A DNA stretch of 64,000 bases from positions 1-64,000 of the forward strand of contig NZ_JAHNZT010000030.1 of NCBI RefSeq assembly GCF_019039035.1, written 5' to 3'. Made by a program: the position numbers and the translations under genes. Shown one piece after another: positions 32,232 to 42,918 of this stretch; within the stretch, counting starts at the first letter, position 1, and each line of letters begins with the position of its first letter. The notes below the pieces were generated by a model that was given only the letters and a program-made list of their open reading frames with translations, was not told where the DNA came from and ran no database searches. This stretch comes from Citreicoccus inhibens (lineage in GTDB: Bacteria > Myxococcota > Myxococcia > Myxococcales > Myxococcaceae).

Positions 32232-35186
32232 ATGGCCACCCAATCGTCTGTCGCGGAGCCCGTCGCGGGCCCTCCCTCCACCGTTCTGCTCGTCGGTAGC
32301 GAGCGGGAGTACGCCCTGGCCCGCACGGCCCTGGGGCGCGCGGGCGTCGCCGTGACGCTGGAGGTCGTCAGCACGCCGCCGGCGCTGGAGGCCGCGCTCG
32401 GCCGTCCGTGGGCGCTGGTGCTGTGCGGCGCGGAAGCGCAGGGCCTGGACTGGGCCAGGGCCCACGCCACCTGGAAGGCGCGGGGCCTGGAGCTGCCCTT
32501 CGTGGTGCTGTCGGGAGAGTGGAGCGAGTCCACCCTGTCGGCCGCCATGCGCGGCGGCGCGCGGGACTACGTCACCGAGGACCGCTACGGCCACCTGCCC
32601 TTCGTGGTGGAGCGCGAGCTGCGCCTGGCCTCCGAGGAGCGCCAGCACCTGGACACGGCCGGGGAGCTGAAGCGCACCAATTGGATCCTCGGCAACATCA
32701 TCGACTCGCTGCCCTTCGTCCTCTTCGTGAAGGACGCGCAGACGCGCCGGCTGGTGGTGGCCAACCAGACGTTCGCGGACGCGTTCAAGGTCACCAAGGA
32801 GTGGCTGCTCGGGAAGCTGGACCACGACTACTTCCCGCAGGAGCAGGCGGACTCCTTCGTCGCCATCGACACGGAGATCCTCGAGACGAAGAAGATGAAG
32901 ACGTTCGAGGAGGTGGCCCGCGCCGGAGGCGTGGACCGCATCTTCGCCACGCGCAAGATTCCGCTGCTGGATGACACCGGCACCGCGCGCTACGTGCTCG
33001 GCGTCACCGAGGACATCACCGAGCGCAAGCAGAACGAGGAGATGCTGCGCGCGTCCACCACGGAGCTGGCCGCGGCCAACCGGCAGCTCGCCGCCAGCCT
33101 GGAGGAAATCAAGCGCACGCGCGCCGTCTCCGCGCGCTCGCTCGCCAGCTACCAGCAGCGCGCGCTGCAGATGGAGATCATCCGCCAGCAGAACGAGGAC
33201 CTGGACCGGCTGGCCCAGGAGCTGGCGGTGGCCAAGCGCAACGAGGAGGAGCGCGCCCGCGAGGCCGAGGCCGCCGCGCGCCTCAAGAGCGAGTTCCTGG
33301 CCAACTTCAGCCACGAGATTCGCACGCCGCTCAACGGCATCATCGGCTACTGCGACCTGCTCATGCGCGAGGAGGGCAACCGGCTCACGCCGCACGGCCG
33401 CCGCGACCTGGGCGTGGTGAAGACGAACGCGAAGACGCTGCTGGCGCTCATCAACGACATCCTCGACCTGTCCAAGATTGAAGCGGGCCGCGTGGAGGTC
33501 GTCACCGAGCAGGTGGACGCGCAGGAGCTGGCCGACGAGTGCATGGCCACGGTGAAGGAGTACCTCAAGGGCAAGGACGTGGCCCTCACCACGCACATCG
33601 ACGACGTGGCGCGCATGGTGCGCACGGACGCGCTGAAGCTGCGGCAGATCATGCTCAACCTCTTGAGCAACGCCGCGAAGTTCACCGAGACGGGCGAGGT
33701 GGCGCTGTCCATGGCCTCCGCGGGCGGCGGTGAGCTGCTCATGAAGGTGGAGGACACGGGCGTGGGCATCCCGTCCGACCAGCTCCCCTTCATCTTCGAG
33801 AAGTTCCGCCAGGTGGACGGCTCCACCACGCGCAAGGTGGGCGGCACCGGGCTGGGGCTCGCCATCGTGCGCGAGCTGTCTCGCGTGCTGGGCGGCACCG
33901 TGGCGGTGACGAGCACCCTGGGCCGCGGCTCCACCTTCAGCGTGCGGCTGCCCAGCGTGCTCGCGGACTCGCCCAACCACCCGCGGCAGCACAGCGAGCG
34001 GCTGGTGCCGGTGGAAGAGGTGGCCGGGCAGCTGGCGCCCATGGCGCAGCCAGGGAGCACCGTGCTGGTGGTGGACGATGATCCGCTCATCCAGCAGCTC
34101 GTCGTGGGCCAGCTGGAGCCCGCGGGCTTCAAGGTGGTGACGGCGGATGACGGCATCTCCGCGCTCAACCTCGCGCGGCAGGTGAAGCCGCAGGCCATCC
34201 TCCTGGACATCCACCTGCCGCGGCTGGACGGGTGGTCGGTGCTCAGCCAGCTCAAGGGCGAGCCGACGCTGGCGGGCATCCCCGTCATCCTCGTGTCCGT
34301 GGAGGAGCAGCGCGCGCGCGGCTTCAGCCTGGGCGCGTGCGAGTACCTGGTGAAGCCCGTGGAGCCCGAGCGGCTGGTGGAGGTGGTGCAGCGCTGCCTT
34401 GCCACCTCGGGCGTCACCTCGGGCTCGGGCACCGCCGAGGTGCTGGTGGTGGACGACGACGCGGCCACCCGCGAGCTGGTCAGCCGCAACCTGCGCCGCG
34501 CCGGCTTCTCCACCAACGAGGCCCGCAACGGAGAGGACGCGCTGCTCAAGGCGCGCGTGTCGCCGCCGTCGCTGGTGGTGTTGGACCTGATGATGCCCAA
34601 CCTGGACGGCTTCGAGGTGCTGCGCCGGCTGCGCGCGGAGAAGCTGGCCGTGCCGGTGGTGGTGCTCACCGGCAAGTCGCTGAGCCACGACGAGGAAGCG
34701 CTCCTGCGCGACGGCTTCGCGGGCTTCGTGCGCAAGGGCGGTCACGCGCTGGAGGACGTCATCGCGCAGGCCAAGGGGCTGCTCTTGTCCCAGCGCGCCG
34801 CCAGCGCCGGGCGGCTGCCCCGCGTGCTGTACGTGGAGGACAGCGCGCAGAACCGAGACATCGTCCGCCGCTACCTGGGCGGGCTGTTCGACCTCATCGA
34901 AGCGGAGGACGGCGAGCACGGCCTCGAGCGCGCCACCCGCGACAACCCCGACCTCATTCTGATGGACCTGTCTCTTCCCCGCCTGGACGGCTGGGAAGTC
35001 ACCAGGCGGTTGCGAGCACTTCCCTCCGTGACGCAGGTCCCCGTGATTGCCGTCACGGCCCACGCCGGAAGGGAATACCAGGACAAGGCGCAGGCGGCCG
35101 GGTGCAATGCGTACCTGACCAAGCCCTTGGATCGTGAACAGTTGCTCGAGACCATCCGCAAGCATCTAGGGAGAAGCCATGGCTGA
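32232..35186 (+). CDS. Hybrid histidine kinase: pseudo-receiver, PAS, HisKA/HATPase and three receivers
   Basis: The 984-residue cytosolic kinase starts with a receiver-like domain (1-130) whose phospho-Asp position reads ALVLCGAE, so it cannot be phosphorylated normally. PAS (150-265) and a coiled coil (265-345) follow, then HisKA with His361 in [12 protein letters not shown] and HATPase motifs ([25 protein letters not shown]). Three complete receivers come last: Asp659 ([11 protein letters not shown]), Asp785 ([11 protein letters not shown]) and Asp912 ([11 protein letters not shown]). It forms an operon with the FIST protein upstream and a receiver protein downstream, with an 8-bp overlap to the latter. 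It is probably the relay hub that receives the FIST signal. Confidence 0.94.
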
Positions 35187-35592
35187 AGCAAAAACTCGCG
35201 TCCTCGTCGTGGACGACGACCCCGACCTGCTCGACCTCGTGCAGCGCTCGCTGAGCGCCTACGGATTCGAAGTGCAGACCCACACCTCCGCGCTGGGGGT
35301 GTCCAACATCGTGCGCGCGTCCGAGCCCGACTTCGTGCTCATCGACGTGAACTTCCCCGCGCTCAAGGGCGACAAGGTCGTTGGCCTCGCGCGTCAATAC
35401 GCGCCGCCGGGGACGCGCTTCATCCTCTACTCGGCCTCGGATGAGTCCAAGCTGCGCTCCTTGGCGTTGGCCTCGGGCGCGGATGGCTACATCTCCAAGA
35501 GCGTCCAGGGCGCGGAGTTGGCCCAGAAGCTCCAGGCCATGCGCCTCAAACCCCGCCCGCCCAATCCCAATCCCGCACCTGTCGAGGGGTGA
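35179..35592 (+). CDS. Single-domain response regulator, third gene of the FIST operon
   Basis: The 137-residue receiver has an acidic pocket (VVDDD), phospho-Asp56 (LIDVNFP) and Lys in ISKSVQ. It has no output domain. It starts inside the end of the kinase gene, so the two are coupled and this is the likely phosphate acceptor. It is a close paralogue of the receiver at 42523-42918; they share the unusual SASDESKLR and SGADGYISKSVQGA segments. A short Pro-rich tail follows the domain. A weak hairpin (CGCGTG/CACGCG, 35602-35625) lies just past the stop. Confidence 0.92.
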   Translation: MAEAKTRVLVVDDDPDLLDLVQRSLSAYGFEVQTHTSALGVSNIVRASEPDFVLIDVNFPALKGDKVVGLARQYAPPGTRFILYSASDESKLRSLALASGADGYISKSVQGAELAQKLQAMRLKPRPPNPNPAPVEG

Positions 35593-35667: not shown

Positions 35668-35682
35668 AGTGATGTCATCACT
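35668..35682. promoter_or_regulatory. Perfect 15-bp palindrome upstream of the dioxygenase operon
   Basis: AGTGATG-T-CATCACT is a perfect palindrome in the AT-richest part of the 220-bp gap, 130 bp before the first gene of the operon. Position and symmetry fit an operator for a dimeric repressor. I cannot place the promoter hexamers with confidence. Confidence 0.5.
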
Positions 35683-35812: not shown

Positions 35813-37645
35813 ATGCACTCGACCACTGATTACAGCCACGCGGAAAAACTGCGCCTCGAGCTGGAGCAACCGCTGTTCAACCCGCTGTTGAAGAAGTGGG
35901 TAGGCCGAGGGGAGTTGGACTACGAGCTGTATTTGAAGACGCCGACGCTGCTGTCGCTCCAGTCCACGGAGACGGAGCTGGTGGCGCATGACGAGCTGAT
36001 GTTCCAGATCGTCCATCAGTCGCAGGAGCTGTGGCTGAAGTTGGTGTCGCGCGAGATGGTGGAGGTGGTGGACGAGTTGGATCGCGACTCGCTGTGGGCC
36101 GTGTCGTCGCGGCTGGAGCGCGTGGCGCGAATCCTCCGGTGCGTGTCGGCGGAGATGGCGGTGCTGGAGACGATGACTCCAGACACGTACCAGACCATCC
36201 GGCGCAGCCTGGGCAATGGCAGTGGTCAGGAGTCCCCCGGCTACAACACGCTGCGCACGGCGGCGAGCGGCATGGAGGACGCGCTGGACCGGCTGCTGGC
36301 GCGGCGGAGCACCACGCTGATGGCGGTGTACTCGGGCCACGGCACCACGGACCTCAAGCGCGTGTGTGAGCAACTGGTGGACGCGGACGAGGCCTTCCAG
36401 GGCTGGCTGTACGCGCACTTCCAGCTCGTCCGGCGGACCATCGGCGTGGACCGTCAGGTGAAGGCGCTGGATGGGTTGCCTTCGCAGGTGCTCGCGGCGC
36501 GGATGAACCTGCCGCTGTTCCGCAAGCTGTGGGACGTGCGCGTGGAGATGACGACGGCGTGGAAGCGCGAGGGCGGCCACGCGCCCGGCGTCGAGCGGAG
36601 CGCCGGCGGTGGATGCCCGGCCATGGCGGAGCTGCGCGCCGAGGCAGAGGCCGCGCGTGCCGCGGCGGGGGCGACGCCGGTGCTCGCGGATGCGGCCCGG
36701 ACCGAGGCCGCCCAGGTGCCCGTGGCGGCGCACGCGGCCGGGGCGACGCAGGTGCCCGCGGCGATGCACGCGAGCCCGGCGCCGCAGGTGCACGCGGACC
36801 CGGCGCCCCCCATGCCCACCGCTGTCGCGAACCTGCCGTACAGCCGCGAGGAGATTGCGCGGATGGCCGCGGCGGCTGGCTGCCCCATGCACGCGGAGCT
36901 GGCGAAGCGTGGCGAGGACAGCGCCAAGGCGAACGCGATGAAGGCACCGCACGCCGAGGCCCACGCGGACGCGACGCACGGGCGCGACGACGCGCCTCGC
37001 GCGGCCGGGGCCCACGCTGGGCATCCGGAGCCGTCGCACCGTCGCCCCGAGGCGCCGCGCGCGGGAGCGCCGCACCTCACGCACGGGACTCATGCGGAGC
37101 CGCATCGCCGAGACGACACCCCGCGCCCCGCGCTCGCGCACGGAGCGCATGCGGAGCCTCAGCGCCGCGATGAGGCGCCGCGCGCCGGTGCCGCGCACGT
37201 CGCTCATGCGGAGCCGCATCGTCGCGATGAGGCACCGCACATCGGCGCGGTGCATGTCGCGCATGCGGAGCCGCATCGTCGCGACGACACCCCGCGCCCC
37301 ACGCTCGCGCACGGAACGCATGCGGAGCCACATCGTCGTGAGGACACCCTGCGCGCCAGTCTGGTCCACGGTGCTCATGCGGAGCTTCGTGTCGGAGCGG
37401 TGCATGGCGTGCACTCGGAGGCGGTCCATCACGGGGGCCATGCCTCACATGCCCATGTGGACTCCGCGCACCGTCGCGACGAACTGGGGCGCAGCGCGGG
37501 AGGCCACCCCACGTCGCCCCATCGCGCGGTGGATCCCATCACCGCGGGCGCGCACCACGCTTCGGACTCGTCCACCCGCGCGAGCGTGGGCAGCCCGGCT
37601 CCCGTGCCCTCCACGTACCTGAACCCGCCCAGAGGGCGGTCATGA
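35813..37645 (+). CDS. Tryptophan 2,3-dioxygenase-family haem protein with His-rich repeat tail
   Basis: The first ~270 residues are a TDO-family domain: FQIVHQSQELWLKLV (His68, distal side) and AHFQLVRRTIG (His202, likely haem ligand). TIRRSLGNGSGQESPGYN replaces the classical GFQSxQFR, and ALDGLPSQVLAARMNLPLF replaces the GTGGS loop. These features match the bacterial TDO-like branch that includes aromatic hydroxylases such as MarE, so dioxygenation of Trp is likely but hydroxylation is possible. The remaining ~340 residues are an Ala/His/Asp/Arg-rich tail containing tandem 19-residue repeats (HAEPHRRDDTPRPALAHGA type). TDOs normally end near 280 residues, so the tail is exceptional. The kynureninase-like gene overlaps by ATGA. 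Confidence 0.85.
   Translation: MHSTTDYSHAEKLRLELEQPLFNPLLKKWVGRGELDYELYLKTPTLLSLQSTETELVAHDELMFQIVHQSQELWLKLVSREMVEVVDELDRDSLWAVSSRLERVARILRCVSAEMAVLETMTPDTYQTIRRSLGNGSGQESPGYNTLRTAASGMEDALDRLLARRSTTLMAVYSGHGTTDLKRVCEQLVDADEAFQGWLYAHFQLVRRTIGVDRQVKALDGLPSQVLAARMNLPLFRKLWDVRVEMTTAWKREGGHAPGVERSAGGGCPAMAELRAEAEAARAAAGATPVLADAARTEAAQVPVAAHAAGATQVPAAMHASPAPQVHADPAPPMPTAVANLPYSREEIARMAAAAGCPMHAELAKRGEDSAKANAMKAPHAEAHADATHGRDDAPRAAGAHAGHPEPSHRRPEAPRAGAPHLTHGTHAEPHRRDDTPRPALAHGAHAEPQRRDEAPRAGAAHVAHAEPHRRDEAPHIGAVHVAHAEPHRRDDTPRPTLAHGTHAEPHRREDTLRASLVHGAHAELRVGAVHGVHSEAVHHGGHASHAHVDSAHRRDELGRSAGGHPTSPHRAVDPITAGAHHASDSSTRASVGSPAPVPSTYLNPPRGRS
37091..37375 (+). repeat. 57-bp tandem repeats inside the dioxygenase gene
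   Basis: Units beginning CATGCGGAGC occur at 37091, 37148, 37205, 37262, 37319 and 37376, exactly 57 bp apart. This gives five full copies and a partial sixth, and each copy is 19 codons so the frame is kept. Copies are imperfect (for example RRDDTP versus RRDEAP). An older degenerate copy begins at 37022. Confidence 0.85.
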
Positions 37646-38790
37646 CCGCTGCGCCCACGTCGCTCACGACGCTGCGCGCGCACTATCCCGTCCTCGCCTC
37701 CTGCACGTACCTCAACAGCAACTCCACCGGCGCCCTGCCGGTGGCCGTCGAGCGGGTGCTTCGCGAGTACTGGGACACCCTGCGCGCCTGGCGAGATGAC
37801 GCGTGGGAAGGCTGGATGAACGGCATCCTCGGCTACGCGAACACGGTGGCTCGCCTCATCGGCGCGCCGCCGGGCTCGGTGGCCACGGATGTGAGCCTGA
37901 GCACCTTGCTCGGGCGGCTCGGCACCTGCTTCGACTGGAGCGGGCCGCGCCGCCGCGTCGTCGTGACCGACCTGGAGTTCCCCACGGTTCCCTTCCTGTG
38001 GAAGGGCTTCGAGCGCTACGGCGCGGAGCTGGTGGTGGTGCCCTCTCTCGACGGGCGCGTGGACGAGGAACGCCTGTGCTCGGCCATCGATGAGCGGACG
38101 CTGCTCGTCTGCGTCTCGCACGGGAGCTTCTCCACCGGCGCCGTCCTCGACGCCGCGCGCGTGGCGAAGGCCGCCCATGCGATGGGCGCGCTCGTCGCGC
38201 TCGATGCCTACCAGACCGTGGGCACCGTGCCGGTGGACGTGAGCGCGTTGGACGTCGACTTCCTCCTGGGGGGCGCGCACAAGTGGCTGAGCGGCTCCGA
38301 GGTCGCGTACCTGTACACGCGCCCCTCGCTGCTCTCCACCCTGCGCCCGGCCGCCACGGGCTGGCTCGCGGGCGATGCGCCCTTCACCTTCCTGCCCTCG
38401 GGAGACTACGCGCCGGACGCGCGCCGCCTCATGGCGGGGACGCCCGCGCCGCTGCTCGCCCTGCTGTCCCGTCCGGGCCTGGACCTGCTGCTGAGCGTGG
38501 GCGTGGAGGCCATTCGCGCCCACTCGCTCGCGCTCACCTCGCGCATCATCGCGCGCGCCGACGCGGCGGGACTGACGGTCGTGACGCCCCGCGAGCCCCA
38601 TCGGCGCGGCGGAGTGGTGTGCCTGCGATTCCCCGGCGACACGGACGTGGTGAAGCGACTGGCCGCACGGTCTTTCATCTGCAGCCACCGCGGCTCACTG
38701 CGCATCGGGCCGCACTTCTACAACACCGCGGAAGAAGTGGAGGCCTTCATGGATGCGCTGACCGAGGAGCACCGGAGGGCGGCGGCATGA
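37642..38790 (+). CDS. Kynureninase-like PLP enzyme (class V aminotransferase fold)
   Basis: The 382-residue protein has the fold-type I signs of kynureninases and related class V aminotransferases. These are the N-terminal YLNSNSTGALP (compare YLdgNSlG), the WEGWMNG segment, ALDAYQTVGTVPVDVSALDVDF with the PLP-ring Asp, and GGAHKWLSG with the predicted PLP Lys214. It lies directly after the TDO-family gene (ATGA overlap), so L-kynurenine or a related alpha-amino acid from that step is the expected substrate. A dedicated formamidase is not in the operon. It may be a true kynureninase or a specialised desulfurase/lyase relative; the context supports the former. Confidence 0.85.
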   Translation: MTAAPTSLTTLRAHYPVLASCTYLNSNSTGALPVAVERVLREYWDTLRAWRDDAWEGWMNGILGYANTVARLIGAPPGSVATDVSLSTLLGRLGTCFDWSGPRRRVVVTDLEFPTVPFLWKGFERYGAELVVVPSLDGRVDEERLCSAIDERTLLVCVSHGSFSTGAVLDAARVAKAAHAMGALVALDAYQTVGTVPVDVSALDVDFLLGGAHKWLSGSEVAYLYTRPSLLSTLRPAATGWLAGDAPFTFLPSGDYAPDARRLMAGTPAPLLALLSRPGLDLLLSVGVEAIRAHSLALTSRIIARADAAGLTVVTPREPHRRGGVVCLRFPGDTDVVKRLAARSFICSHRGSLRIGPHFYNTAEEVEAFMDALTEEHRRAAA

Positions 38791-39821
38791 GCGCGCTCGC
38801 CATGGATGCAAGCTCGCCGCGCGCGCTGTTGCACCTGCTCTTCAATGGCGCGCGCGCCGTGGACGTGTTGGAGACCGCCCTGGCCCTGGGCCTGCTCGAC
38901 GTGCTGGAGCCCGGCCCCGTCACGCTGGGCGCGCTGGCCGCGCAGCACAAGCTGGTGCCCGGCCGGCTCTACAAGTTCCTCGACTGCCTGGAGAGCCTGG
39001 GCCTGGTGAAGCGCGAGCAGGACTCCGACGCGCTGGAGTCCGCGCGCTACCGCGCCGTGCCGGGGCTGCGCGCCGCGGCCGAGTCCGTGCTGGGCCTGCA
39101 CTCCCTGGAACGCGACCGCGAGCAGTACGCCTGGCAAGAGCTGCGCGGCCGACTCCCCGAGGTGCTGCGCGGCGCCCACTCGATGTCCACCGCGTCCTTC
39201 GACTGGCCTCCGCGCACCGCGTCGCAGGTGGAGGGCTTCGAGTCCAGCATGGCCGCGGGCCTCGGCCCCATCCTGGAGACGTTCCGCACGCACGCGGAGA
39301 GCCTCTTCTCGGCGGGGGCGCGGCTGCTCGACGTGGGCGGCGGCGATGGGACGCTCGCGGGGCACCTGCTCCGCGACCACGCGGGGCTCAGCGTGGACGT
39401 CTACAACCTGCCGGCCACCGAGCCGCTGGTGGCGCGCACGCGTCAGCGCTTCGAGCACCCCGCCGCGCGCATGGGCTTCGTGGGAGGAGACTTCCTGCGC
39501 GAGGCCCTGCCCACGGGTTACTCCGCGCTGTCCTTCGTGCGCGTGCTGCACGACTGGCCAGCCGAGGTGGCGCGGTCGCTGATGAAGGCCGCGTACGATG
39601 CGCTTCCCTCGGGCGGGCGCATCCTCATCTGCGAGGAGTTCCGCACCCCCGAGCGACTGGCCGCGCAGTTCTTCTGGTCCTACTTCCTCATGGGGGTGGA
39701 CTCGTGCGTCAGCCGACTGCGCGAGGTGGACTTCTACCTGCGCACGCTGGAGGACGTGGGCTTCCACGCGCCGCACGTGAAGCCCGGCCCGTTCGAGCTG
39801 GTCGTCGCCCACAAGCCCTGA
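38787..39821 (+). CDS. SAM-dependent O-methyltransferase (acetylserotonin-OMT-like)
   Basis: The 344-residue protein has the two-domain layout of small-molecule O-methyltransferases. An N-terminal winged-helix dimerisation domain (ALALGLLDVLEPGPVTLGALA) precedes a Rossmann domain with motif I DVGGGDGTLAGHLL (Asp182), FVRVLHDWPAEV (motif with His-Asp) and LPSGGRILICEEF (motif III). Start ATG overlaps the stop of the kynureninase-like gene (ATGA), so the three genes form a translational unit. By context it should methylate an aromatic amine or hydroxyl derived from tryptophan/anthranilate. A hairpin at 39847-39875 ends the unit. Confidence 0.88.
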   Translation: MSALAMDASSPRALLHLLFNGARAVDVLETALALGLLDVLEPGPVTLGALAAQHKLVPGRLYKFLDCLESLGLVKREQDSDALESARYRAVPGLRAAAESVLGLHSLERDREQYAWQELRGRLPEVLRGAHSMSTASFDWPPRTASQVEGFESSMAAGLGPILETFRTHAESLFSAGARLLDVGGGDGTLAGHLLRDHAGLSVDVYNLPATEPLVARTRQRFEHPAARMGFVGGDFLREALPTGYSALSFVRVLHDWPAEVARSLMKAAYDALPSGGRILICEEFRTPERLAAQFFWSYFLMGVDSCVSRLREVDFYLRTLEDVGFHAPHVKPGPFELVVAHKP

Positions 39822-39923: not shown

Positions 39924-40718
39924 ATGAAGGGTCCCCGGTCACGGTCGGGGTGGAGCGCCGCGTTGAGCGGCGTGGGACTGGCGGAAGCGGAGCCTGGCCC
40001 CCGCGAGCACGGGGACGCGGGCGTGGGGCGAGTCGGCCCCGAGCGCGAGGTCATGGTGCCGGTGGATGACGCCACCGTGCTCAGGGGGCGCCTGGCGATT
40101 CCACCGAGCGCGGTGGGCATGGTGGTGCTGGCGCGCGGCAGTGACAGCAGTCGCGGCAGCCTCCGGCTCGCGCAGACGGCGGGGCTCTTGCGGCAGGCCG
40201 GGTTGGGCACCCTGCTCCTGGACCTGCTGACCCACGTCGAAGAGGAGGAGCGGCGCACGCGTCAGCTTCGCTTCAACATCGGACTGCTCGGCCTGCGCAT
40301 GGCGGGCGCGGCGCGCTGGCTCCAGCGCGGCGCCACCACGGCCCGGCTGCGCGTGGGCTACTTCGGCTCGCACACGGGAGCGGGCGCCGCATTGTGCGCG
40401 GCGGCCTTGCGTCCAGACTGTGTGCACGCCGTCGTGTCGCGCGGTGGGCGGCCGGACCTCGCGGGGAGCGCGCTGACGCGCGTGCGAGCGCCCACGCTGC
40501 TTTTGGTGGGAGGAGCGGACGCGCTGGGCCTGGAGGTCAACGACCGAGCCTGCGCCACGCTGCGGGCCGACAAGCACGTCGAGGTCATTCCCGGCGCGAC
40601 GCATCACTTTCACGGCCCCGGGGAGCTCGCGCGAGTGGCCGAACTCGCCTGCCAGTGGTTCCTCCAACATCTGGCCGAAACGCCCGCGTCCGCCTGGGAG
40701 GAAGCGCCCCCGCCATGA
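39924..40718 (+). CDS. Dienelactone-hydrolase-family protein with altered nucleophile elbow
   Basis: The 264-residue protein is an alpha/beta hydrolase of the DLH type often fused to phosphoribosyltransferases. The segments VVSRGGRPDLAG, LLLVGGADALGLEVN (acid) and GATHHFHGPGEL (His) match the family. The nucleophile elbow, usually FGASTGAAAA, reads FGSHTGAGAA: the Ser position is His150, with Ser149 one residue earlier. The catalytic triad is thus disturbed, and ARGSDSSRGS also replaces AHGSGSSRHS. It may be inactive or use another nucleophile. It lies downstream of the tryptophan-related operon but behind a terminator, with its own GGAGGAG ribosome-binding site. A formamidase role is speculative. 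Confidence 0.8.
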   Translation: MKGPRSRSGWSAALSGVGLAEAEPGPREHGDAGVGRVGPEREVMVPVDDATVLRGRLAIPPSAVGMVVLARGSDSSRGSLRLAQTAGLLRQAGLGTLLLDLLTHVEEEERRTRQLRFNIGLLGLRMAGAARWLQRGATTARLRVGYFGSHTGAGAALCAAALRPDCVHAVVSRGGRPDLAGSALTRVRAPTLLLVGGADALGLEVNDRACATLRADKHVEVIPGATHHFHGPGELARVAELACQWFLQHLAETPASAWEEAPPP

Positions 40719-40806: not shown

Positions 40807-41868
40807 TCAACGCCCCGGACGAGGTGGCCAGCGCGGCAGCCACGCGGTGAACGTCGTGCCGCCCGACTCGGTGGAAGTCACCGCCAAGGTGCCGTGATGC
40901 GCGAGCACAATCTGCCGCGCGAGGAAGAGGCCCAGGCCCACCCGGCCCGCCTCCGTGTGCTCGCGTGGCTCGAAGAGGTGCGGCAGCCGCTCGGCGGGAA
41001 TCGCCGGGCCTTCGTTGTGGACCTCGAACCGGACACCGTCCTGCGCGCCGTGACTGCCCACCGTCACCACGCCATCCGGCGCCCCGTGCAGCACGGCGTT
41101 GCTGACCAGATGCACGAGCAGCTGCCCCACGCGCTCGGGATCCCAATCACCATGGCCCTCGCCGGACTGCGCGTGCCGCAGCGCTCGGCCCGCATGCGCC
41201 TGCGCCATGCCGTCCAGCGCGTGCTCCACCAGCTCGTGCAGGTCGAACGAGCGGTACTGGAGCACCAGCCCTCCGCCCACCTTCGCCTGCGCGAAGTCGA
41301 GCACGCTCCCGAACACGCGGTGCACCCGCTCGGCCGAGGCGAAGATGCGCCCCACCGCGGACTCCAGCCGCCCGCCCAGCTCGCCGCTGCGCAAGAGCGC
41401 CAGCGCCAGCTCCTGGAGGGTCGCGAGCGGCCCATCCAGGTCCTCGCGCAGGATGCCCAACACCCGTCGCTCGAACGCCTCGTGCTCGCGCAGCATGTCC
41501 GCGAGCCCGCCGTCCTCCGCGTGCAGCACCACCCCGAAGCCGCCCGTCTCCGGCGGCAGCCGACGCACCGTCACCCGCGCCAGCTCGGTGCCCCCGTCCC
41601 GCCGCGCCACGGCCAACCGCTCCCGCGCGACGCCGTGCGCCTCCGCCTCTCGCAGCAACCGCGCGGGTCGTCCCTCGCGAGCCTCCCCTGCCCCGAAGAG
41701 GGCCTCGAACGGCTGACCCACGCGCTCCGCCGCGGGGTGCCCCCATCGGCGCTCGGCCCCCACGTTCCAGCTCGCCACGCGCCCCCCTGAGTCCACACGG
41801 ACCAAGGCGAGCGCCTCCAGGTCCTCCACCGGCACGGTCCATCGCGAATCGACTTCAGGTTCGGCCAT
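40807..41868 (-). CDS. PAS-containing histidine-kinase-like protein lacking the phospho-acceptor His
   Basis: The 353-residue cytosolic protein has a PAS domain (about 10-125, DSGGRVASWNVGAERRWGHPAAERVG), a dimerisation helix pair and a full HATPase domain (LVHLVSNAVLHG, HNEGPAIPAERL, GRVGLGLFLARQI). In the HisKA helix the segment reads LREDLDGPLATL where a kinase has SHDLRxPLxxL, so the His is Glu142. ATP binding may persist but autophosphorylation on the normal residue cannot. It is divergent from a stand-alone receiver gene (129-bp gap), and both may act together. A 5-bp-arm repeat TCAAG-N5-CTTGA (41911-41925) lies between them. Confidence 0.86.
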   Translation of the reverse strand: MAEPEVDSRWTVPVEDLEALALVRVDSGGRVASWNVGAERRWGHPAAERVGQPFEALFGAGEAREGRPARLLREAEAHGVARERLAVARRDGGTELARVTVRRLPPETGGFGVVLHAEDGGLADMLREHEAFERRVLGILREDLDGPLATLQELALALLRSGELGGRLESAVGRIFASAERVHRVFGSVLDFAQAKVGGGLVLQYRSFDLHELVEHALDGMAQAHAGRALRHAQSGEGHGDWDPERVGQLLVHLVSNAVLHGAPDGVVTVGSHGAQDGVRFEVHNEGPAIPAERLPHLFEPREHTEAGRVGLGLFLARQIVLAHHGTLAVTSTESGGTTFTAWLPRWPPRPGR

Positions 41869-41997
41869 GACTTCCTCGTTGAGGCGCGCCAGCCAACGTT
41901 CCCCTCGAACTCAAGTACAGCTTGAAATCGAACAAGGACCGCAAATGGGTGGAATTTTTCACTCCCACGCGCACGGCCCGCCCGTTACGTTGTCCAG

Positions 41998-42381
41998 GTG
42001 CCAGCCGAGACCTCACAGCGCACGGTTCTCGTCGTGGAGGATGACCCAGACATCCGGGGGGCGGTCTGCGAGCTGCTCGAGCTGGAAGGCTACGGCATCG
42101 CCTCCGCCCGCCACGGCGCCGAGGCGCTCCAGTACCTGGACGGGCGGGCGCACCTGCCCTCCCTCATCCTGCTGGACCTGATGATGCCGGTGCTGGACGG
42201 CCAGGGGCTGCTGGAGCGGCTCCGCGCCGACACGCGGCTTTCCACCATCCCCGTGCTGGTGCTGACAGCGAGCCCCATGGACGCGCCGCCCGTGGGCGCC
42301 GTGGGGCTGCTGCGCAAACCCGTGCAGTTGGAGGAGCTGCTCGATGAGGTGGCCCTGCGCTGTGCACCGACGACGCACTGA
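41998..42381 (+). CDS. Single-domain response regulator
   Basis: The 127-residue receiver begins at GTG and has VVEDD acidic residues, phospho-Asp60 (LLDLMMPVLDG), the Thr of VLVLTAS and the Lys of LLRKP. No output domain. It is divergent from the His-less kinase. The AT-rich gap between them (41869-41997) must contain both promoters. Confidence 0.9.
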   Translation: MPAETSQRTVLVVEDDPDIRGAVCELLELEGYGIASARHGAEALQYLDGRAHLPSLILLDLMMPVLDGQGLLERLRADTRLSTIPVLVLTASPMDAPPVGAVGLLRKPVQLEELLDEVALRCAPTTH

Positions 42382-42522
42382 GCCCGCGTGTCCCAGGAAC
42401 GAACGCGCGGCCGGGATGGCGACAGCGCGTCGGGGCTGGGTGATACTCGGGGCGAGACGGGCCGTTCACATGGGAGTGCGGCCTGAACCTGTGGTGTCCG
42501 CGCGAACTTGGGGGGCAGTGCC

Positions 42523-42918
42523 TTGTCGGAGATGAAGATCCGCGTGCTCGTCGTGGACGATGACCAGGACCAGTTGGTCCTGGCGGAACGGACCTTGAGC
42601 GCCTTCGGGTTCGACGTGCGGACGCACCGCTCCTCGCTGGGCGTGTCCAACCTGGTGCGCACGACGACGCCGGACCTCGTCCTCCTGGACGTGAACATCC
42701 CGGCGCTCAGCGGCGACAAGGTGCTCGCGCTCGCCCGCGCGCAGGCGCCCAAGAGCACGCGCTTCATCCTCTTCTCCGCCTCGGACGAGTCCAAGCTGCG
42801 TGCGCTCGCGCAGGCCTCGGGCGCGGATGGCTACATCTCCAAGAGCGTCCAGGGCGCGGACCTGGCCAAGAAGCTGGAGCAGCTCCACAAGAAGGGCCGT
42901 CCTCCGACCCCGACCTGA
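42523..42918 (+). CDS. Single-domain response regulator, paralogue of the FIST-operon receiver
   Basis: TTG at 42523 is chosen as start because it aligns exactly with the ATG of the paralogue at 35179 and lies 7 bp after a GGGGGG. Phospho-Asp56 then falls at the same position in both. The 131-residue protein has VVDDD, LLDVNIPALSGDK, FSASDESKLR and SGADGYISKSVQGA. It has no output domain. It stands alone, unlike its paralogue, so the two may compete for or share a kinase. Confidence 0.9.
   Translation: MSEMKIRVLVVDDDQDQLVLAERTLSAFGFDVRTHRSSLGVSNLVRTTTPDLVLLDVNIPALSGDKVLALARAQAPKSTRFILFSASDESKLRALAQASGADGYISKSVQGADLAKKLEQLHKKGRPPTPT

Follow-up and report, generated by a model that had tools for sequence, protein, structure and literature searches.

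A Compact Tryptophan 2,3-Dioxygenase-Like Protein Encoded with a Kynureninase-Like Enzyme and a Methyltransferase in an Overlapping Operon of Citreicoccus inhibens

Introduction

Does a short operon of predatory myxobacteria encode a second kynurenine-type route, separate from the ordinary enzymes of the same genome? The question is raised by three overlapping genes in a 64,000-nucleotide stretch of Citreicoccus inhibens DNA (assembly GCF_019039035.1, contig NZ_JAHNZT010000030.1, positions 1 to 64,000), hereafter the window. An earlier note, made from the sequence alone, had read them as genes for a tryptophan 2,3-dioxygenase (TDO)-like protein, a kynureninase-like enzyme dependent on pyridoxal phosphate (PLP) and an O-methyltransferase. 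Our analysis indicates that the first protein is a compact relative of TDO and not an ordinary TDO, that its gene and the methyltransferase gene are the constant core of the operon, and that the gene between them has apparently been lost twice. We suggest that the operon encodes a second and dedicated route of the kynurenine type that leads to a methylated aromatic compound, a tentative reading that we consider nearly as probable as its opposite.

The Operon and Its Compact TDO-Like Protein

The three open reading frames, all on the forward strand, were confirmed at the coordinates listed in Table 1, the first spanning 35813-37645 (610 amino acids, aa). The 4-base overlap ATGA lies at both junctions, as the earlier note had reported, and the same junction style is found in orthologues of other genomes. 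The genes had also been described as translationally fused, with products made in a fixed ratio. They are real, separate genes that overlap and are not fused, and an overlap alone gives no conclusion about the ratio.

The first product had been assigned to the TDO family on a GSGQESPG-type motif. The motif and the superfamily stand, as the Pfam Trp_dioxygenase profile matched in two stretches at 91 bits (cut-off 34.9), but the protein scored only 115.4 bits against the 390.7-bit equivalog cut-off of TIGR03036 (tryptophan 2,3-dioxygenase), and the earlier description did not mention a tail, about 348 aa long, that is rich in His. Alignment with the TDO of X. campestris also fell into two stretches, separated by 35 residues here and by 86 in that enzyme, so that about 51 internal residues are missing. 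The spacing from the motif to the haem His is 57 residues, compared with 108 in the classical-layout TDO encoded elsewhere in the same genome (contig C27). In TDO, the GTGGS loop holds the amino group of the substrate; the window protein lacks this loop and reads VKALDG at its position. It does share the haem-ligand His and most tryptophan-contact residues with both classical enzymes, retaining the equivalents of Tyr24, Tyr27, Phe51, His55, Tyr113, Arg117, Ser124 and the proximal His. The numbering of these residues follows X. campestris TDO and MarE, and their roles are drawn in part from PMC11904535.

The tryptophan-site residues were invariant in an alignment of 14 sequences, with Tyr113 nearly so, and the positions of Tyr24, Tyr27, Phe51, His55, Arg117, Ser124 and the proximal His were identical in all of 23 aligned proteins. 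The compact group has the motif GxGSGx[EDQ]SPG (GNGSGQESPG in the window protein). Eighteen of the 23 combined the SPG motif, a spacing of 57-60 residues to the haem His and no GTGGS; four had the classical layout (101-108 residues, GTGG), and one, at locus L148, was short, with GTGG and without the SPG motif. Judged by these features, the first protein is a compact TDO relative, predicted to bind haem and probably to act on tryptophan or a related compound.

MarE, a 2-oxindole-forming monooxygenase, is a further haem enzyme of the TDO superfamily that lacks the TDO insertion and has another sequence in place of GTGGS; it is described as having a simplified helix where TDO has the extra helices aF and aG (PMC11904535). 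Its DATG and SLGGR loops are not matched in the window protein, which has NGSG and VKALDG there, and NGSG supplies the active-site Ser found in TDO, the MarE residue being Thr. The family profile scored X. campestris TDO at 118.9 bits and MarE at 52.7. On the other hand, the fold model of the first protein matched MarE best, at Z 19.9 and 19.7, with X. campestris TDO at 16.6; the mean predicted local distance difference test score (pLDDT) of the model was a moderate 66.9, and identity to MarE in the fold alignments was 20-24%. Two fold models were built, on shallow alignments of 14 and 11 rows, the other having a mean pLDDT of 65.3. Because the fold prefers MarE while the sequence profile prefers TDO, the layout may be called MarE-like and the sequence TDO-like. 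A group of proteins annotated as TDO family thus has the shortened layout of MarE and not the textbook layout of TDO.

Compared with the sister genome L052, the core has 0.002 nonsynonymous (dN) and 0.103 synonymous (dS) substitutions per site (dN/dS about 0.02). For the tail, dN was 0.079 and dS 0.347 (dN/dS about 0.23 over 308 aligned codons), and insertions and deletions comprised whole codons. These data exclude the tail as a wrong-frame artefact; it is coding and fast-changing. In the other 55 loci its length ranges from 8 to 332 aa and a Cys-Pro motif is present in 43; tails longer than 51 aa are confined to loci with all three genes (trios), some of which have short tails as well. The Cys-Pro motifs resemble a haem regulatory motif, and our guess would be a haem-regulatory or metal-binding role. 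The tail (36599-37645) also contains repeats such as HAEPHRRDDTPR, and its length varies widely among species.

The Kynureninase-Like Enzyme and the Methyltransferase

The second product had been read as a class V PLP enzyme with kynureninase motifs. Its Pfam matches to Aminotran_5 (116.6 bits, cut-off 21.5) and KYNU_C (46.6 bits, cut-off 27) agreed with this, but it missed the equivalog cut-off of TIGR01814 (kynureninase) with 85 against 246.4 bits. The profile of the cysteine desulfurase SufS gave 100.2 bits, also far below its cut-off. Kynureninase of P. fluorescens was the best solved structure both by sequence (E 2e-35) and by fold (E 7.3e-19), and SufS entries ranked shortly after it in the fold search. 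Among positions of that enzyme which we take to be active-site residues, Ser36, Trp64, Phe129, Lys227, Trp256, Thr282 and Arg375 are retained, and Asp132, His204 and Tyr226 are replaced by Val, Gln and His, respectively. The second enzyme is kynureninase-like without being a clear kynureninase. Since it and the first protein both miss curated cut-offs, we infer their TDO and kynureninase activities and do not assert them.

The third protein had been called an acetylserotonin-type O-methyltransferase. Only Methyltransf_2 (67.1 bits, cut-off 22.3) and Dimerisation (34.5 bits, cut-off 25.6) matched it above the cut-off, and an HDW motif with a catalytic-type His was invariant in 12 of 12 aligned methyltransferases, which places it in the Methyltransf_2 type. 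SibL was a weak match among PDB structures (E 5e-11). The family assignment therefore holds, but the methyl group could be transferred to O or to C.

The proteins of the operon are second copies, because the genome has, besides its classical TDO, a kynureninase of 453.7 bits on contig C101 and two matches to the PF04199 cyclase, both off the window's contig. The earlier note found no nonribosomal peptide synthetase (NRPS) at the locus, and this is borne out: of 67 condensation-domain matches in the genome, none is on the window's contig (C47). Compared with the 4-methyl-3-hydroxyanthranilic acid (4-MHA)-type cassette of actinomycin, the gene order is present, but the contig has no condensation domain and the matches to PF04199, the formamidase type that was searched for, lie on other contigs; the locus does not qualify as such a cassette.

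Conservation in the Family

The family set comprised 96 genomes, taken for Myxococcaceae, in which compact TDO was counted at 337 bits or more. Fifty-six genomes, the window's included, hold it, among them 27 of 27 in genus group g19 and 15 of 16 in g5, and the locus is also present in named Myxococcus, Corallococcus, Pyxidicoccus and Hyalangium records. Each holder gave three TDO-family matches, which we read as the compact gene and two stretches of a second TDO-type gene. A methyltransferase gene lies downstream in all 56, so that the TDO-like and methyltransferase genes are the constant core. Among the 55 holder loci besides the window, it stands within about 250 bases of the preceding gene in 53; in L059 and L096 the distance is 5.5 and 5.4 kb, L096 being a trio in which the methyltransferase gene stands further on. 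The response regulator gene is upstream in 54 of the 55, and the remaining locus, L102, ends at the contig end.

The middle gene is found between the other two in 23 of these 55 loci, or 24 of 56 with the window; it is absent from 32 holders and is therefore not indispensable. Overlaps of 4 bases were counted, with start codons chosen automatically and some odd gaps due to start errors, at 16 of 23 TDO-kynureninase and 10 of 23 kynureninase-methyltransferase junctions of the other trios, and at 24 of 32 TDO-methyltransferase junctions of loci with two genes (duos). All three genes are also present in a distant genome (G161, locus L149). The expectation that related genomes keep the genes together is thus borne out by the 24 family trios and by this genome, which rule out a chance neighbourhood.

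In a tree of the joined TDO and methyltransferase rows, rooted on L149, the duos fell into two clades, with support of 0.976 and 0.998, a topology that suggests the middle gene was lost twice. The loss in two clades suggests that the methyltransferase is independent of that local gene. The two losses are a natural experiment, and comparison of trios with duos makes the order of the steps testable. Orthologues of the middle gene (719-772 bits) were found in 25 of the 96 genomes, namely the 24 trios and G040. A relocated copy in the duos was considered and not upheld, since 171 bits was exceeded in only one of the 32 duo genomes, G003, by a paralogue at 349.5 bits. An ordinary kynureninase above the cut-off was present in 68 of the 96, including all 56 holders.

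The operon is most likely inherited vertically. Several genera have inherited it in this way, beside a response regulator, in most or all of their genomes, which indicates a lasting physiological function and not a strain-specific antibiotic.

Two side observations were made in these records. Some relatives of the middle enzyme have, with names read by eye, a moaC-like neighbour (L161, L162) or a neighbour resembling a PLP gamma-lyase gene (L161, L163). Locus L011, from a record titled Comamonas sp. KCTC 72670, is of the Myxococcus type, and the title is probably wrong.

Compact TDO Beyond the Family

Compact TDO proteins were also found in Actinobacteria, Alphaproteobacteria and Vibrio. A tblastn search of plasmids returned 108 records, and query coverage reached 80% or more in 15 of them; the surroundings of nine of the 15 (H1, H2, H3, H10-H15) and of H16, H17 and H29 were viewed. 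The search for a kynureninase-like gene covered loci L141-L148, L159 and ten other Myxococcota loci, with L165-L167 outside it. Next to compact TDO, on its downstream side, the plasmid records of Micromonospora, Novosphingobium and Nonomuraea each have a match, and in Alloyangia one lies at a distance of 3.3 kb; of the ten Myxococcota loci, L149, L150 and L151 have the gene directly beside compact TDO. Automatic gene calling was incomplete at distant loci: it missed the TDO and kynureninase-like genes of L150 and called none in Vibrio (L146).

In Micromonospora and Nonomuraea a second, longer TDO-family gene follows right after the kynureninase-like gene. In Nonomuraea gerenzanensis (L147, 7001-13444), compact TDO, the kynureninase-like gene, the longer TDO-family gene and a PF04199 cyclase stand in a row that includes, as read by eye, an apparent flavin adenine dinucleotide enzyme and an aminotransferase; it looks like a further tryptophan pathway. 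In Micromonospora zamorensis (L143, 3325-10166), genes for a nitric oxide synthase oxygenase and a globin lie upstream of the compact TDO, kynureninase-like and second TDO-family genes. Two Streptomyces loci (L144, 6992-8979; L159, 6986-8988) have two tandem overlapping TDO-family genes beside NRPS genes.

An Lrp/AsnC regulator adjoins compact TDO in Alloyangia and Rhizobium, and the Novosphingobium neighbours were read as an amino acid transporter, an amidohydrolase and a dipeptidase. L152 and L154 have, 2.1 and 1.2 kb downstream, respectively, a gene that exceeds the cut-off for bifunctional salicylyl-CoA 5-hydroxylase, an enzyme related to aminobenzoyl-CoA monooxygenase.

Related Systems

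The earlier note held that this exact trio was undescribed, and this is true only narrowly. In the actinomycin report, acnG (arylformamidase), acnH (TDO, 284 aa), acnL (kynureninase, 420 aa) and acnM (methyltransferase, 346 aa) are consecutive, and the 3-monooxygenase gene is outside the cluster (PMC6521150). Because the order of gene classes here equals acnH-acnL-acnM, the combination is, by this analogy, not new as a kind; the likeness is one of gene class. The acn cluster differs in its adjoining arylformamidase and its NRPS genes, neither of which is adjacent in the window, and the window operon in its long His-rich TDO tail, its overlapping genes and the frequent loss of its middle gene (PMC6521150).

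According to PMC5867642, mycemycin (mymB/mymC/mymQ) and sibiromycin (SibL/SibP) have a SibL-type methyltransferase, a TDO and a kynureninase in one cluster, as here, but these clusters are larger, differ in layout and also encode salicylate synthase and halogenase. SibP and MymC are likened by description and could be of either TDO layout. The quinomycin-family TDO Qui17 is also a TDO-family enzyme of secondary metabolism and converts beta-hydroxytryptophan, but it works with an NRPS and a P450 (PMC3578932); the likeness is again by description.

Among the matches listed in the openly licensed literature, there was no report of this operon in myxobacteria and no assay of a compact SPG-type TDO, though SibP, AcnH, Qui17 and TioF, whose sequences were not compared, could belong to this type. 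The operon appears to differ from the known clusters in its compact TDO layout, its stand-alone overlapping arrangement, its vertical inheritance and its tail, the antibiotic-pathway TDOs being set apart by description only.

Proposed Function and Alternatives

In the route that we tentatively favour, the compact haem enzyme would oxidise tryptophan, or a derivative substituted on the ring or at the beta position, and so form a product of the N-formylkynurenine type. The formyl group would be lost through an enzyme encoded elsewhere, or through none. The kynureninase-like enzyme would then remove the side chain to leave an anthranilate-type acid, and the methyltransferase would methylate it on O or C. 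In the duo lineages, it may use the kynurenine-type product or material from the ordinary kynureninase. The methylated product might serve as a signal or a building block, as the earlier note proposed. Ring opening, side-chain removal and methylation are favoured because of the repeated pairing with a kynureninase-like gene and the retained tryptophan-site residues. Also in favour of the route are the TDO-like active-site Ser, the higher profile score of TDO than of MarE, the closeness of the PLP enzyme to P. fluorescens kynureninase, the class order shared with acnH-acnL-acnM, the low dN/dS of the core and the ordinary kynureninase in each of the 56 holders. A wider version is quite improbable in our judgement: that SPG-type compact TDO and its kynureninase-like partner are a second, formamidase-independent kynurenine pathway across several phyla, distinct from the classical pathway, which in myxobacteria, with the methyltransferase, would yield a hitherto unseen methylated aromatic used in signalling or defence, the tail loading or buffering haem or metal.

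Several findings weigh against the kynurenine-type route. Both enzymes miss their curated cut-offs, the GTGGS loop is absent, and Asp132, His204 and Tyr226 of kynureninase are changed. Compact TDO was not found in 40 of the 96 family genomes (some assemblies are fragmented), and 32 of the 56 holders have no middle gene. In G040 (L160, 6760-8310) the kynureninase-like gene stands alone at the same place beside the response regulator, the other two genes being gone, and relatives of the middle enzyme (39-42%) are found at other sites that have no TDO match. No kynureninase-like match was found near compact TDO in the Rhizobium, three Streptomyces and Vibrio records, nor in 7 of the ten other Myxococcota loci.

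It is possible, but rather unlikely, that the haem enzyme acts like MarE and inserts one oxygen into a tryptophan derivative to form an oxindole or hydroxyindole, on which the methyltransferase would act directly, leaving the PLP enzyme as a droppable accessory. The protein is compacted as is MarE, which is described as having no helices aF and aG (PMC11904535); both proteins lack GTGGS, MarE gave the best fold matches, at a mean pLDDT of only 66.9, and the TDO-like and methyltransferase genes are paired in 56 of 56 holders. However, the sequence is nearer to TDO than to MarE, VKALDG is also unlike SLGGR, the active-site Ser is TDO-like, and a kynureninase-like partner in several phyla suits ring opening better. 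The PLP enzyme may instead perform another chemistry, for example of the lyase or desulfurase type, so that the trio would not be one kynurenine-type pathway. The higher score for SufS than for kynureninase (both far below threshold), the three changed residues and the moaC-like or gamma-lyase-like neighbours of its relatives, read by eye, would fit this; but the equivalents of Arg375, Trp256, Trp64 and Thr282 are retained, KYNU_C is above its cut-off, both sequence and fold rank kynureninase first among solved structures, though SufS is close by fold, and the PLP gene recurrently adjoins compact TDO. We consider this alternative decidedly improbable.

The operon might also degrade or inactivate an indole compound, with methylation protecting the cell or exporting waste. 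The Lrp/AsnC regulators, the Novosphingobium neighbours, the salicylyl-CoA 5-hydroxylase-type genes and the contig without condensation domains are in line with such a catabolic or detoxifying role. These neighbours come from distant relatives, however, a methyltransferase is unusual for catabolism, and an ordinary kynureninase is already present in all 56 holders, as is a classical TDO in the window genome; we therefore regard this role as improbable.

Features of the Locus

Table 1. Features of the operon and its neighbours in the window.
Feature	Positions	Strand	Remarks
Compact TDO-superfamily haem-type protein, core (predicted)	35813..36598	+	262 aa; GNGSGQESPG; fold model nearest MarE and TDO
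Predicted haem His in the TDO-like core			Proximal, residue 202; distal, residue 68
C-terminal tail of the TDO-like protein	36599..37645	+	About 348 aa; His/Ala/Pro-rich; repeats; two Cys-Pro motifs (GGGCP, AGCPMH)
Kynureninase-like class V PLP enzyme	37642..38790	+	382 aa; ATGA overlap with first gene
S-adenosylmethionine-dependent methyltransferase (Methyltransf_2 and dimerisation domain)	38787..39821	+	344 aa; HDW; ATGA overlap with second gene
Stand-alone response regulator receiver	35179..35592	+	Syntenic upstream neighbour of the operon
Hydrolase-like protein	39924..40718	+	Reading of the sequence; no Pfam match at 1e-3; downstream, 32 of 55 loci

The hydrolase-like gene is a loose associate of the operon. 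Searches of the window for Rfam families and tRNA genes found nothing. The gap 5' of the operon contains a perfect palindrome, AGTGATGTCATCACT, at 35668-35682; it was rejected as an operator, since only two of the 56 upstream regions contain it and these belong to the window's genus. On both sides (32232-35592 and 40807-42918) the operon is flanked by genes for sensor kinases and stand-alone response regulators.

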